Shown one piece after another: positions 3,365-39,699 of a DNA stretch of 39,699 nt (positions within the stretch are counted from its first letter, which is position 1; every line of letters begins with the position of its first letter). The translations under genes were made by a program, and so were the position numbers. Location: positions 1 through 39,699 of the IMG/VR virus record IMGVR_UViG_3300047200_000128; one strand, written 5' to 3'. The notes under the pieces were generated by a model. It had not been told where the DNA came from, made no database searches, and saw only the letters and a list, made by a program, of their open reading frames with translations. This stretch comes from a virus.

Positions 3365-3761
3365 AACACATAGAAGTATAGGTGAATGGGACTGGAACAG
3401 CGAAATACTATGGAAAAAGATAATACAGACAGATGACGAAAGTTGCTGGACCTGGATTGGTAGCACTGGTCCACAAACGAACTTATTCGGAGCACGACGA
3501 AACGGAAAACCACAAATGACACAGGCACGAAGAATATTATATAGAGATGTATATGAAGAAGACTGCGATGACAAACAGATTAAGATGAAATGTAAAAATG
3601 CTTATTGTATGAACTGGCATCACTTCGAGACTACACCGAATCAAAGACGCTATTACAAAGATGGAGTAGAGCGAGGCAAGCGAGAACAGATAGATCCAAA
3701 AGCAGGATTACAACGAGCGAAACTTAAGAAAGTATTAGCAGACTGGGAACAAGGAGAATAA
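3357..3761 (+). CDS. HNH-endonuclease-like protein, possibly catalytically degenerate
   Basis: The 134-residue protein has the layout of small phage HNH proteins: a CWTWIGSTG segment near residue 30, a middle ARRILYRDVYEE segment near residue 60, and a zinc-ligand-like CKNAYCMNWHHFE segment near residues 79-91. In active members these segments normally read HR..Y and H.C.N..C.NP.H. Here the first conserved His appears to be Arg and the second Met, while the two Cys and the final His remain. It may therefore bind DNA or zinc without being a normal nuclease. The C-terminus is Lys/Arg/Glu-rich. It overlaps the upstream peptidase gene and is followed one base later by the next gene. Confidence 0.6.
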   Translation: MRETHRSIGEWDWNSEILWKKIIQTDDESCWTWIGSTGPQTNLFGARRNGKPQMTQARRILYRDVYEEDCDDKQIKMKCKNAYCMNWHHFETTPNQRRYYKDGVERGKREQIDPKAGLQRAKLKKVLADWEQGE

Positions 3762-3762
3762 A

Positions 3763-4029
3763 ATGAGCAGACCAAAACCAAAAGTATTACATTCGATCGA
3801 AGTAGGAGATGGTACTATCTGGGAGATATTAGAAGCAGAGGCTTACTACGCGATTACTTACGAAGGCAAGCCTGTAGGCATTAGAATAACACAGAGCAGT
3901 ATGACAAACAACGAACACTTATATAAAAAACTGAGTTATACGAATCTGGGCAACGCAAGAGCACAGGTAGCAAAACTGAACTATAGATTTAAGACTACAG
4001 GATTCGACTTAATGATGATTGAAGTATAA
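3763..4029 (+). CDS. Small conserved phage protein, unknown function
   Basis: 88 residues, mixed alpha/beta, no membrane segment. It begins MSRPKPKVLHSIEVGDG and has a YAITYEGKPVGIRI strand pair, then a KKLSYTNLGNARAQVAKLN helix-like segment. The pattern resembles small proteins I recall from aquatic phages, in which the GKP and N-A-LN positions recur, but I cannot name a function. The start has AAGGAG upstream, and the gene follows the HNH-like gene after one base, so they are probably co-transcribed. It ends just before the first dyad-containing promoter. Confidence 0.65.
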   Translation: MSRPKPKVLHSIEVGDGTIWEILEAEAYYAITYEGKPVGIRITQSSMTNNEHLYKKLSYTNLGNARAQVAKLNYRFKTTGFDLMMIEV

Positions 4030-4046
4030 AATGGTAAAACTGACCA

Positions 4047-4101
4047 TTGACTTATTATTGGATTAGTGTATAATAACAGAATAGTAGGATAAATACTATT
4101 G
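4047..4101 (+). promoter_or_regulatory. Sigma70-like promoter plus AATAGTA dyad with T4-late-like motif (copy 1)
   Basis: TTGACT at 4047-4052 and TATAAT at 4069-4074 are separated by 16 nt. Immediately downstream a perfect 7-bp inverted repeat, AATAGTA (4080-4086) and TACTATT (4094-4100), flanks GGATAAA. The right half reads GATAAATACTATT, close to the T4 late-promoter consensus TATAAATACTATT. A start 6 nt after TAAATA would be G4101. The same composite recurs at 5091 and 6690. The dyad lies where the early transcript would start, so it could be an operator, a 5' RNA hairpin, or a second late promoter. Confidence 0.7.
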
Positions 4102-4130
4102 TAGAACATAACAAAGAAAGGGACTACAAA

Positions 4131-4441: not shown

Positions 4442-5086
4442 ATGACACAGATTTACTTACAACTTACACGCAACAGAACTGGCGAGGTAGCAACGCTACG
4501 ATTAGAAACAGCACTGGAACTTATTCGAGAGTATGACAAGAAGCAACGCTTTATGAATATGCTGGGACAAGAGACTTACTGGAAGAAGAACAGACTTACA
4601 CTATGGAAGCAGATAACTGACAACGAAATACAGGAAGAAGAAAAAACTGAAGTAGCAGAACTTAACAAAATCAACAGGAGTGTTAGAGACAAGATAATAG
4701 GCGGACTGATTATGGTGGAGTTCGAGCACACAGAATATATGCTGGATAAAATAGCATATCGAATGGAAACACATTACGCAGAGAAGTTCAAGATACGAGA
4801 AGAACTGGCAGCACTGAAAGAAGAACCAAAATACTTTAGTCATCAAGAAGATTATAACTATGACTACAACACAGGCAGAGGTAAATCTTTAAGGTCAAGA
4901 CGCATTATTACGCAGAATCTGGTAGTTAGACACGCAGATATGGAAAACTTTAACAGAGAGATGACAGCACTATACGACAAGTACGCTGTCAAAGATTCTA
5001 CTAAACTACGCAAAGGTAAAAGATACTTCGATGTAAATGAGTTAGCAAAACGATATTACAGAAAATACTATAAAATGGGCAAATAG
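4442..5086 (+). CDS. Early protein of unknown function, charged and helical
   Basis: 214 residues starting at ATG 4442, which has AGAAAGGA correctly placed upstream. The frame is open further upstream, but that stretch lies inside the preceding gene. The protein is very rich in Lys, Arg, Glu and Tyr and appears mostly helical: an N-terminal beta segment (TQIYLQLTRNRTGEVATLRL), then long helices, with a probable coiled coil around residues 55-130. The C-terminus is basic (RKGKRYFDVNELAKRYYRKY). I recognise no family. It shares the early operon with the 97-residue protein. Confidence 0.7.
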   Translation: MTQIYLQLTRNRTGEVATLRLETALELIREYDKKQRFMNMLGQETYWKKNRLTLWKQITDNEIQEEEKTEVAELNKINRSVRDKIIGGLIMVEFEHTEYMLDKIAYRMETHYAEKFKIREELAALKEEPKYFSHQEDYNYDYNTGRGKSLRSRRIITQNLVVRHADMENFNREMTALYDKYAVKDSTKLRKGKRYFDVNELAKRYYRKYYKMGK

Positions 5087-5090
5087 ATTA

Positions 5091-5145
5091 TTGACTTAAG
5101 AGTAGATTAGTGTATAATAACAGAATAGTAAGGTAAATACTATTG
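5091..5145 (+). promoter_or_regulatory. Sigma70-like promoter plus AATAGTA dyad with T4-late-like motif (copy 2)
   Basis: TTGACT at 5091-5096 and TATAAT at 5113-5118, spacer 16 nt. The dyad AATAGTA (5124-5130) and TACTATT (5138-5144) flanks AGGTAAA. The segment GTAAATACTATTG matches copy 1 except at the start of the late-like motif. The similarity to the region at 4047 extends to the start of the next gene (GTAGAACATAACA-AGAAAGGG), so this is a duplicated regulatory cassette. It drives the 214-residue gene at 5175. Confidence 0.7.
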
Positions 5146-5174
5146 TAGAACATAACATAGAAAGGGAACTACAA

Positions 5175-5819
5175 ATGGCGAAGAAACAAAACAAAACAAA
5201 CCAGGCATTCGGATTACTATTCGGAGCAGAAGAACAACAGGCTACGGTTAGAGTACAAGAACTATTCGAACGCAACACACAGGCAAAAGAGTGTTATCTG
5301 GTAGTCAAAACTGGCAACAGCGGAACAAAGATCAACGACTTATATAACACAACGATATGGAACGAAGGCAAAGAGATTAAACTGGCTGGACGACACAGAC
5401 TACAAGGTCCGTGGTTAAGAAGTATTACAGATCAACTTAAGCAAAGCGGTATTACTGGCACGGTTAGTATCTTTAATCATACTATCGAAGACGCAGAAGA
5501 ACTTATCAACGAACATCAAAAAATGATGATTAAGTTAGCAAAGGGAGTAGATTGGAAGGTAGTAGCAAGAGTAAATCTCGAAGAGAAAGAACTGGATGGT
5601 CTTATTAAAACTTTAGGTGTAGAGAACTTCGAGAACGAGTTAGCACAAAGCAGAGTTAGCGGAACTTACAACGCTTACAGACATACAAAATACGACAAGT
5701 ACAAAACAACAAGCAACTATCAAAACAACAAACTTATAAACGAGTGTAGATTAGAATACAAGAAAAGACAGGCAGACTTTATCGGACAACGGTTAAGCAA
5801 GTACATAGAAATATTATAA
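5175..5819 (+). CDS. Early protein of unknown function
   Basis: 214 residues. The N-terminus is basic and polar (MAKKQNKTNQAFGLLFGAEE). A middle alpha/beta part (CYLVVKTGNSGTKINDLY, then TGTVSIFNHTIEDAEELINE) is followed by a helical, basic and Tyr-rich C-terminus. No transmembrane segment, zinc ligands or known enzyme motif is visible. It stands alone behind its own copy of the dyad promoter, and a further promoter follows it, so it is probably a monocistronic early gene. The upstream AGAAAGGGAAC supports the start. Confidence 0.7.
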   Translation: MAKKQNKTNQAFGLLFGAEEQQATVRVQELFERNTQAKECYLVVKTGNSGTKINDLYNTTIWNEGKEIKLAGRHRLQGPWLRSITDQLKQSGITGTVSIFNHTIEDAEELINEHQKMMIKLAKGVDWKVVARVNLEEKELDGLIKTLGVENFENELAQSRVSGTYNAYRHTKYDKYKTTSNYQNNKLINECRLEYKKRQADFIGQRLSKYIEIL

Positions 5820-7176: not shown

Positions 7177-7260
7177 CGCGAACAAAAAAACACTTTTTTC
7201 GCGAGTGGCTACTACCCCCTTACCGAGCATAAAAACGTGCTCAAAACAGGGGTTATTTTT
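7177..7260 (+). terminator. Compound terminator-like hairpins at the early/late boundary
   Basis: The first hairpin is CGCGAA (7177-7182) with TTCGCG (7198-7203), extendable by an A-run/T-run pairing. The second structure is nested: ACCCC (7214-7218) pairs with GGGGT (7249-7253) and encloses GAGCA (7225-7229) with TGCTC (7238-7242). It is followed by TATTTTT at 7254-7260. This probably stops early transcription just before the virion gene promoter. No gene fits 7061-7317. Confidence 0.5.
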
Positions 7261-38255: not shown

Positions 38256-38388
38256 GAGCGACGATTGGGATTATGCCCAACAACTCCAACGTGAATACCC
38301 AGAACTGGCAGCAGAAGTATATGGTATGGTATTACGAGCAGAGAGTGAGATAGAGTTTAATAAGTTAGTGGATGACTTGACTAAATAA
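38212..38388 (+). CDS. Small helical protein (58 aa), unknown function
   Basis: MTHLDLLAQLYLAFKSDDWD, YAQQLQREYPELAAEVYGMV and a C-terminal helix, all amphipathic. It starts inside the preceding gene, overlapping it by 44 nt. No clear Shine-Dalgarno is visible, so translation may depend on coupling. The stop codon is part of the TAAATA motif that precedes the predicted RNA. Confidence 0.5.
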   Translation: MTHLDLLAQLYLAFKSDDWDYAQQLQREYPELAAEVYGMVLRAESEIEFNKLVDDLTK

Positions 38389-38393
38389 TAATG
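38382..38393 (+). promoter_or_regulatory. TAAATA late-like promoter of the predicted RNA
   Basis: CTAAATAATAATGTAG: TAAATA at 38382-38387, and 6 nt after its last base is G38393, the first base of the 8-bp closing stem. The ATG at 38391 is followed at once by TAG, so no protein is made from it. Confidence 0.5.
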
Positions 38394-38511
38394 TAGTAGC
38401 ACACTTCGAGTCGCAACGACCTGAAGTATCCTCAATATGTATATATCCCTTTCTACAAGGCTACTACATTAAAGCCCCGATTATCGCCATTTTCGGGGCT
38501 TTTTCTTTTTT
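38393..38511 (+). ncRNA. Predicted structured small RNA ending in an intrinsic terminator
   Basis: GTAGTAGC (38393-38400) pairs with GCTACTAC (38460-38467); at DNA level the perfect arms are 12 bp (38389-38400 with 38460-38471). Inside, ACTTC (38403-38407) pairs with GAAGT (38423-38427), and the stem continues by a G-U pair, one mismatch and GTCG/CGAC to a CAA loop. About 30 nt of A/U/C-rich sequence follow, then a 10-bp terminator stem. It contains no useful ORF, has a late-like promoter and strong terminator, and does not fit a tRNA (no T-arm, no usable anticodon arm). Its 5' end shares TAGTAGCA with the origin repeats. Confidence 0.5.
38471..38511 (+). terminator. Strong intrinsic terminator
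   Basis: AAAGCCCCGA (38471-38480) pairs perfectly with TCGGGGCTTT (38493-38502), 12-nt loop, then a run of T broken by one C to 38511. It separates the late genes from the replication operon. Confidence 0.9.
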
Positions 38512-38557: not shown

Positions 38558-38563
38558 TAAATA
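38558..38563 (+). promoter_or_regulatory. TAAATA motif upstream of the replication operon
   Basis: GAGATAAATAGATGTATAG at 38554-38572, about 30 nt before ATG 38592, after the strong terminator at 38471-38511. Something in 38512-38591 must restart transcription for the replication genes; no convincing sigma70 -35/-10 pair is visible, and this motif is the best candidate. Confidence 0.4.
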
Positions 38564-38591
38564 GATGTATAGTTAAGAAAGGATATAAACT

Positions 38592-38741: not shown

Positions 38742-39490
38742 TGACTACACTCTACACGTTATTCTTTGAAGCGGAACCAGATAATCCAGTGGTCTTTTAT
38801 GTCGGGCATACCAATGATGTAGATAGACGCTGGGCAGAGCATATCAATAACGCTTTTAATGAAAATCATCAAGAGTATGAGACATACAAGTATCGCTGGA
38901 TAAGAAGCTTAAAAGATATGGGTATCGAATGTCAGATGGATGTACTACACGAGATAAGCACAGACGATGACACCGAATACGAATGGATCTTAAAGATTGC
39001 CAGAATGAACCTACGATTGGGTATAGAGTTCTATGATGGTTATCCCTTGACAAATATGAAGGCTGGTGATTTATTGACAGAACTGATAGCGTGTAAATAC
39101 GTGACCACTAAAGAAGATATTACCAAATACAGACAGGCTAAAAAGCATACTATCACTTATACTAAAAGCGATGGCACAGAGGCTGAGAGTTATACAACCA
39201 AAGGGGCAGCGATCATCGCTGACTTACACAGACAGGCAGATGCGGCAAGAGCCGAAAGACACAGACAGAGTATTAAACAGATTGCCAGACAGGCACAGCA
39301 AAAGATTGACTTACAAGATCCAGGTAGAACAGCGAAGTTAAAGCAACAAACCAGGGATTTATTGTATGCTGATTTATTGGCAGGCTGTATTAAATGGCAG
39401 GAATATAACCAAATGATGTATGATTTACACGGAGGTTATGAGGCTTGGACAGAGACAAAGCCTCAACTATTGATAAGAAAGGACAAGTGA
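38741..39490 (+). CDS. GIY-YIG endonuclease, full length
   Basis: 249 residues. Residues 1-65 carry the GIY-YIG fold: LYTLFFEAEP (first strand, Y), VVFYVGHTNDVDRRWAEHIN (YVG, the catalytic Arg and the EH helix), then a YKYRWIRSLKDMGI helix. Residues about 65-120 continue the nuclease domain; residues about 120-249 are a charged helical tail rich in Arg, Lys and Gln. It could be a free-standing homing-type endonuclease or a nuclease acting in phage DNA metabolism. Its position directly before primase and the presence of a diverged copy at the other window end mark the locus as variable. One-base overlap with the next small gene. Confidence 0.8.
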   Translation: MTTLYTLFFEAEPDNPVVFYVGHTNDVDRRWAEHINNAFNENHQEYETYKYRWIRSLKDMGIECQMDVLHEISTDDDTEYEWILKIARMNLRLGIEFYDGYPLTNMKAGDLLTELIACKYVTTKEDITKYRQAKKHTITYTKSDGTEAESYTTKGAAIIADLHRQADAARAERHRQSIKQIARQAQQKIDLQDPGRTAKLKQQTRDLLYADLLAGCIKWQEYNQMMYDLHGGYEAWTETKPQLLIRKDK

Positions 39491-39582
39491 TGACTGAATA
39501 TGAAGGATTGATGATAGACATATTGAAAAAGATATGCGAGAAACTGGATGACATAGCCAGAGTTATTGATGAAAGGAATTGA
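39490..39582 (+). CDS. Very small protein (30 aa) between endonuclease and primase
   Basis: MTEYEGLMIDILKKICEKLD, then DIARVIDERN: one amphipathic helix. It starts on the endonuclease stop (TGATG) and ends just before the primase ATG. It is absent from the corresponding junction at 559-561, where the endonuclease stop overlaps the primase start directly. So this is a small insertion or deletion between the two variants of the locus. May be non-functional. Confidence 0.4.
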   Translation: MTEYEGLMIDILKKICEKLDDIARVIDERN

Positions 39583-39583
39583 T

Positions 39584-39699
39584 ATGAAAGATATATTATT
39601 AGAGCATCAAGAGAACTGGAGGTATTGTAGAGTTAGAGCAGGAGAAAAGAAGCCATATCCAGCAGATTGGCAAAATAATCCGCTACGATTACACGAAGT
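39584..39699 (+). CDS. Primase-polymerase, N-terminal part (repeat of 561-676), cut by window end
   Basis: The first 38 codons (MKDILLEHQENWRYCRVRAG onward) are identical in DNA to 561-676. The ribosome site is GAAAGGAATTGAT here instead of AGAAAGGAAAAGTG. This confirms ATG, not the upstream GTG, as the primase start. Most likely the same gene seen twice because the contig closes on itself. Confidence 0.8.
   Translation, partial: MKDILLEHQENWRYCRVRAGEKKPYPADWQNNPLRLHE
39584..39699 (+). repeat. Terminal direct repeat with 561-676
   Basis: 116 of 116 bases match 561-676, ending exactly at the window end. The sequences just upstream differ (39583 back to 38931 against 560 back to 1 are only partly identical). 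A perfect match that ends at a contig border is the usual sign of circular assembly or of a terminally redundant, permuted genome. Confidence 0.85.

Follow-up and report, generated by a model that had tools for sequence, protein, structure and literature searches.

A predicted small RNA from an uncultivated phage belongs to a previously unlisted family whose loops match ribosome-binding sites of phage leaders

Genomic setting of the element

The analysed stretch of DNA (the window) is a virus record of 39,699 bases from IMG/VR. It carries genes for terminase, portal, major head protein, primase and helicase, and nearly all genes of the phage lie on the plus strand. The element at 38380-38511 occupies the border between structural and replication genes. 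Its upstream neighbour is a 58-aa ORF and its downstream neighbour is a 49-aa ORF, followed by a GIY-YIG nuclease gene. The features of the locus were as follows.

38380..38387, plus strand: late-promoter-like motif ACTAAATA, with predicted start at G38393, overlapping the stop codon of the 58-aa ORF
38393..38511, plus strand: predicted small RNA of about 119 nt, with homologues in related phages
38393..38400, plus strand: 5' arm of closing stem P1, GTAGTAGC, pairing with 38460-38467
38403..38427, plus strand: inner hairpin P2, of varying sequence and kept pairing
38438..38457, plus strand: short hairpin P3, UGUA-UAUAUCCCUUUC-UACA, with a conserved pyrimidine loop; the stem of 3-4 bp is tentative
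38446..38454, plus strand: anti-Shine-Dalgarno core UCCCUUUCU, whose complement AGAAAGG is the top-enriched leader 7-mer of the lineage
38460..38467, plus strand: 3' arm of P1, GCTACTAC, complement of the 5' arm
38471..38511, plus strand: intrinsic terminator, a 10-bp stem (AAAGCCCCGA/TCGGGGCTTT at 38471-38502) with a T-rich tail
38558..38563, plus strand: motif TAAATA, the separate late promoter of the downstream gene

A host search with the terminase in GTDB genomes gave no relative. The two ends of the record (1-676 and 38930-39699) repeat each other, with 86.5% identity over 564 bp and 92.8% over 152 bp; there are two diverged copies of the GIY-YIG gene and of the first part of the primase gene. 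The repeats probably reflect a genome that is circular or terminally redundant and whose assembly drew on a mixed population, or else a genuine duplication.

Late-promoter motif

TAAATA occurred 36 times on the plus strand of the window and 5 times on the minus strand. About 20 of the plus-strand copies, between 3001 and 38558, precede genes of both modules, and the motif is similar to T4 late promoters. Because it is so one-sided and typically lies just before genes, TAAATA appears to behave as the promoter element of this phage. T4 late promoters have the consensus TATAAATA. The gp36 promoter of phiEco32, tAATGTAtA, is a single element with the start 6-8 bp downstream (PMC8948821). TAAATA would resemble both in being a single-element phage promoter with this spacing, but differs from them in that no sigma factor for it was recognised by PHROGs among the window proteins scanned.

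Predicted fold of the RNA

Dinucleotide shuffles gave -17.4 ± 3.0 kcal/mol, whereas the RNA itself folds at -37.3 kcal/mol (z = -6.6). P1 (GUAGUAGC/GCUACUAC), P2 and the weak P3 meet in a three-way junction, and the terminator comes after it. An earlier sequence-only reading of the window had described a hairpin inside the closing stem; the inner fold is corrected by adding P3. The CCUUU of the P3 loop is predicted to be open, with unpaired probability of 0.83-0.99.

Other points of that reading agreed with the sequence: G38393 opens the 8-bp stem with 38460-38467, the perfect DNA arms of this stem reach 12 bp in the window, the strong terminator is present with T-rich sequence after its stem, and no tRNA or tmRNA was found by ARAGORN. 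The reading of a single ATG with a stop after it did not hold, as a second ATG at 38437 opens an 11-codon frame (MYISLSTRLLH). The frame is not conserved in relatives and a peptide was rejected.

The chance of an in-register stem of at least 9 bp is about 0.004 per TAAATA, and the window has 41 such sites. From one genome alone the arrangement is moderately surprising, which is suggestive and not decisive. The homologues with kept layout described below remove this doubt.

Relatives and covariation

An IMG/VR search with the terminase gave 225 related stretches, and 80 were kept. Four further distinct members of the window's own lineage (class A) were identified from DNA and protein neighbours: L107 in G003, L111, L112 in G008, and L110 in G006 with an identical copy in G007. 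A sister lineage (class B) was reached via a conserved tail-side protein, and a motif scan followed by a filter for promoter and stem yielded twelve members. Covariance models added three class B members (G024, G045, G022) and six more divergent ones (G021, G023, G027, G030, G033, G037). The class B model recovers class A at E values of 3e-5 to 2e-3, so the two classes form one superfamily. L109 and most other hits of the pattern scan were discarded as coding sequence or as being without promoter and stem.

The family comprises about 26 members including the window, so that the register of promoter, closing stem and terminator first proposed here is common to about 25 others. Nearly all relatives have the same promoter motif at the same distance from the stem (TAAGTA in L372 and L374), and a terminator-like stem at the matching place.

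Over 10 arm sets from both classes, 98.9% of P1 cells were paired, and since the arms were picked as those that pair, slid and shuffled controls weigh more than this raw percentage. Compensatory changes, which had been set beforehand as the check on the closing stem, occurred in eight of nine P1 pairs (0 of 500 shuffles), and the covariation score was 0.775 against 0.295 in shuffles. Full-length MAFFT alignments misplace the 3' arm, so P1 and P2 pairs were scored after the two arms had been linked through a fixed spacer. The covariation in P1 is due to L110, with a compensatory change of G-C to A-U, and to the sister lineage, where P1 sequence differs between subgroups with pairing kept; RNAalifold on four close class A members gave P1 without covariation. 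P2 is almost wholly different in sequence among class A members and perfectly paired. Its five sequences were 100% paired, with compensatory changes in five of six pairs (0 of 500 shuffles for both pairing and covariation score). Stems thus vary, and the conserved sequence within each lineage is the exposed loop. The class A loop UAUAUCCCUUUCUA is nearly constant in five distinct members.

Rfam showed no family at gathering or relaxed thresholds, and the best sub-threshold hits were far below cut-off (e.g. PrrF with 21.5 of 90 bits). A DNA search with the whole element in 50,697 cultured-phage records gave no significant match. As judged by comparison of related genomes, the relatives in IMG/VR settle the question that the element is an RNA, and it is a member of a previously unlisted family of predicted small RNAs in about two dozen related phages.

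Some additional structures were seen in the relatives. One subgroup (L189 at 4470-4510, L191 at 1590-1630, L307, L309 and L328) has a small conserved hairpin after P1 (GGUCGCAAUGACC, GACGCAAUGUC and similar, with a GCAA-type loop), and then AGUCCGGAAA and the terminator. In L194 several TAAATA sites follow one another at 3718-4060; after each come a hairpin and a terminator-like stretch containing UAUCCUUUCC or GAGUAUCCUC, and these may form an array of additional small RNAs. In L195 the stretch 5138-5300 holds a late promoter and then a longer structured segment closed by CGTAGTTG/CAACTACG and containing GTCCGGTGAAACTCCGGTGG, with no match in Rfam.

Complementarity of the loop with phage leaders

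The loops are complementary to ribosome-binding sites in leaders of the phage's own genes, a feature missed in the sequence-only reading. Three such regions were found in the window.

38576..38587, plus strand: ribosome-binding region AGAAAGGATATA of the adjacent gene (start 38592), complementing the loop with one bulged C
4115..4123, plus strand: predicted target AGAAAGGGA in the leader of gene 4131 (97 aa), a 9-nt exact complement, rank 2 of 47
5158..5167, plus strand: predicted target TAGAAAGGGA in the leader of gene 5175 (214 aa), a 10-nt exact complement, rank 1 of 47

The leader of gene 6764 had rank 3 of the 47 starts. Exact sense-strand complements of the class A loop with 9-10 nt were located at ribosome-binding sites, 7-8 nt before start codons, at two genes in the window (4131 and 5175), two in G003 and one in G007.

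Late-promoter leaders were also ranked by 7-mers without bias. In class A the top 7-mer was AGAAAGG (10 of 79), the complement of loop CCUUUCU, and in class B it was GGCAAAT (11 of 61), the complement of the invariant AUUUGCC; the leaders are partly homologous and related phages are not independent, so p-values of this ranking are too small. The motifs do not swap, with GGCAAAT in 0 of 79 class A leaders and AGAAAGG in 2 of 61 class B leaders. The class B duplex has two parts in correct order, with 5'-CCUUU..UAUUUGCC-3' of the small RNA facing 5'-GGCAAAUA..AAAGG-3' of the leader. In the predicted fold, part of the UAUUUGCC motif is base-paired. Exact class B stretches reach 12 nt in L190 and 11 nt in L207; the long exact leader matches are GGCAAAUACAAA in L190, GGCAAAUAACA in L207 and UAGAAAGGGA in the window.

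In each of 16 members tested, the duplex energy with the leader of the adjacent gene was reached by at most 14 of 300 permuted small RNAs (6 of 300 in the window, rank 5 of 47). The adjacent gene ranked 1-5 among 10-47 gene starts in nine of ten genomes ranked, and the exception was G007 (17 of 45); in G045 and L307 the adjacent gene was not scored among the gene starts. Composition-matched loops reached the best-target energy of class A in 23 of 200 cases for the window, 4 of 200 for G003, 73 of 200 for G007 and 58 of 200 for G008. By this comparison the best energies are not clearly special except in G003, because any pyrimidine-rich loop pairs with a Shine-Dalgarno sequence. Taken over the family, the exposed seed appears complementary to translation-initiation regions beyond chance, more weakly so against permuted class A loops, and seed and target seem to change together between lineages (AGAAAGG with CCUUUCU in class A, GGCAAAU with AUUUGCC in class B).

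Proposed function and alternatives

We propose, with a probability of roughly 0.65, that the element encodes a stand-alone, terminator-ended antisense RNA, made from a phage late promoter, which masks ribosome-binding sites of the phage's own mRNAs. The RNA structure, the conservation, the fixed promoter register and the match of loop and leader motifs within lineages were established by computation; what we infer is production of the RNA, its pairing in trans, and repression. Transcription would start at the late promoter, P1 would close the molecule at its 5' end, and P1 with P2 would form a rigid body. P3 and the unpaired junction would then expose a pyrimidine motif, UAUAUCCCUUUCU in the window lineage and UUCCUUU with UAUUUGCC in the sister lineage. 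In trans, this motif could pair with phage mRNAs whose leaders begin at promoters of this type, over or beside the Shine-Dalgarno sequence. The RNA would appear with late transcription and most likely lower translation of small genes of the replication or early module; in the window, the high-ranking genes 5175, 4131, 6764 and 38592 belong to the replication side of the genome.

The main rival is a cis-acting leader: on transcripts from the tail genes that read through the terminator, the element would fold onto the ribosome-binding site downstream and block it, leaving translation to transcripts that begin at the gene's own promoter. It would fit with the constant position of the element just upstream of a gene with matching leader, marking the border of structural and replication genes. 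However, the element carries a promoter of its own, placed so that the start falls at the stem, and it ends in a strong terminator. A second late promoter serves the downstream gene, and the best-matching leaders in the window belong to the distant genes 5175, 4131 and 6764, in trans, so we consider this explanation unlikely. Less likely again is a mimic of the 16S rRNA 3' tail, in which the loop UCCCUUUCUA, near to CCUCCUUUCU, competes for the Shine-Dalgarno sequences of host mRNAs and so stops the host's translation. The motif is exposed and rich in pyrimidines, and its CCUUUCU is common to the usual 16S 3' end. But the core CCUCC is not kept, UUCCUUU with UAUUUGCC of the sister lineage fits phage leaders rather than 16S rRNA, and the phage's own mRNAs would be hit too.

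The compact stable junction, the conserved single-stranded segments and the genomes resembling those of short-tailed phages would also suit a protein-binding or structural RNA of the virion or polymerase (a packaging RNA like that of phi29, or a 6S-like decoy), with incidental loop complementarity. It is improbable, since loops differ between lineages in step with the leader motifs, stem sequences are not conserved and Rfam has no match. A DNA-level element such as a cruciform, a protein site or an origin-related site had been suggested for the 12-bp perfect arms, and TAGTAGCA at the 5' end of the element is also present six times near 2803-2972. In relatives the arms shrink to the transcribed part, and the stem either reaches just to the predicted start or stops one pair short of it; G-U pairs occur in the stem, P2 covaries, and the conserved part is the loop, so that a DNA-level role is very improbable. 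At 2803-2972, after the helicase gene and ahead of gene 3008, the six TAGTAGCA copies are spread over both strands, with near-copies in addition. They form the densest 8-mer cluster in the window and a likely replication origin (iterons). G003, G007 and G008 all retain the P1 sequence, yet no such cluster was found in them, which also speaks against a DNA-level site; between lineages the sequence of P1 is free to vary with the loops kept. For these reasons pairing with the origin or boundary region, as was hinted from this match and from GGCTACTAC at 7207, is unsupported; both matches exist and look like chance.

Comparison with known phage RNAs

The c4 RNA of P1/P7 pairs by its loops around the ribosome-binding site of the phage gene ant and blocks translation (PMC12197685). 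The antisense RNA proposed here is similar as a small structured phage RNA with loops complementary, by prediction, around phage ribosome-binding sites. C4 RNA is encoded just upstream of its target; RNase P releases it from the ant transcript, and its role is in the immunity of temperate phages. In contrast, the present RNA would have its own late promoter and terminator, a long closing stem at its 5' end and several predicted targets. C4 was absent even from the weak hits of the Rfam search, so no homology was found.

The sar RNA of P22 and OOP of lambda are likewise phage-made antisense RNAs, known to repress phage mRNAs. Being encoded on the opposite strand and overlapping their targets, they are fully complementary to them, whereas the present RNA shares its strand with the predicted targets and would pair imperfectly. 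PreS and VpdS, trans-acting phage small RNAs of Hfq type, are comparable as independent small RNAs with short pairing. Known RNAs of that type act on or compete with host RNAs, whereas the matching targets found here are phage leaders.

Significance

It is possible, though we hold this more tentatively than the masking of ribosome-binding sites itself, that the family is widespread and fast-evolving, typically sits at the border of structural and replication genes, and co-evolves with the leader code (AGAAAGG or GGCAAAU) as a regulon-wide translational switch for late-promoter mRNAs. Few cases are known of lytic phages timing their own gene expression by small RNAs. If true, it would mean a whole family in abundant uncultivated phages with an evolutionary record of small RNA and target leader changing together; several lineages offer exact loop and leader pairs, and a covariance model can be used to search for further members.
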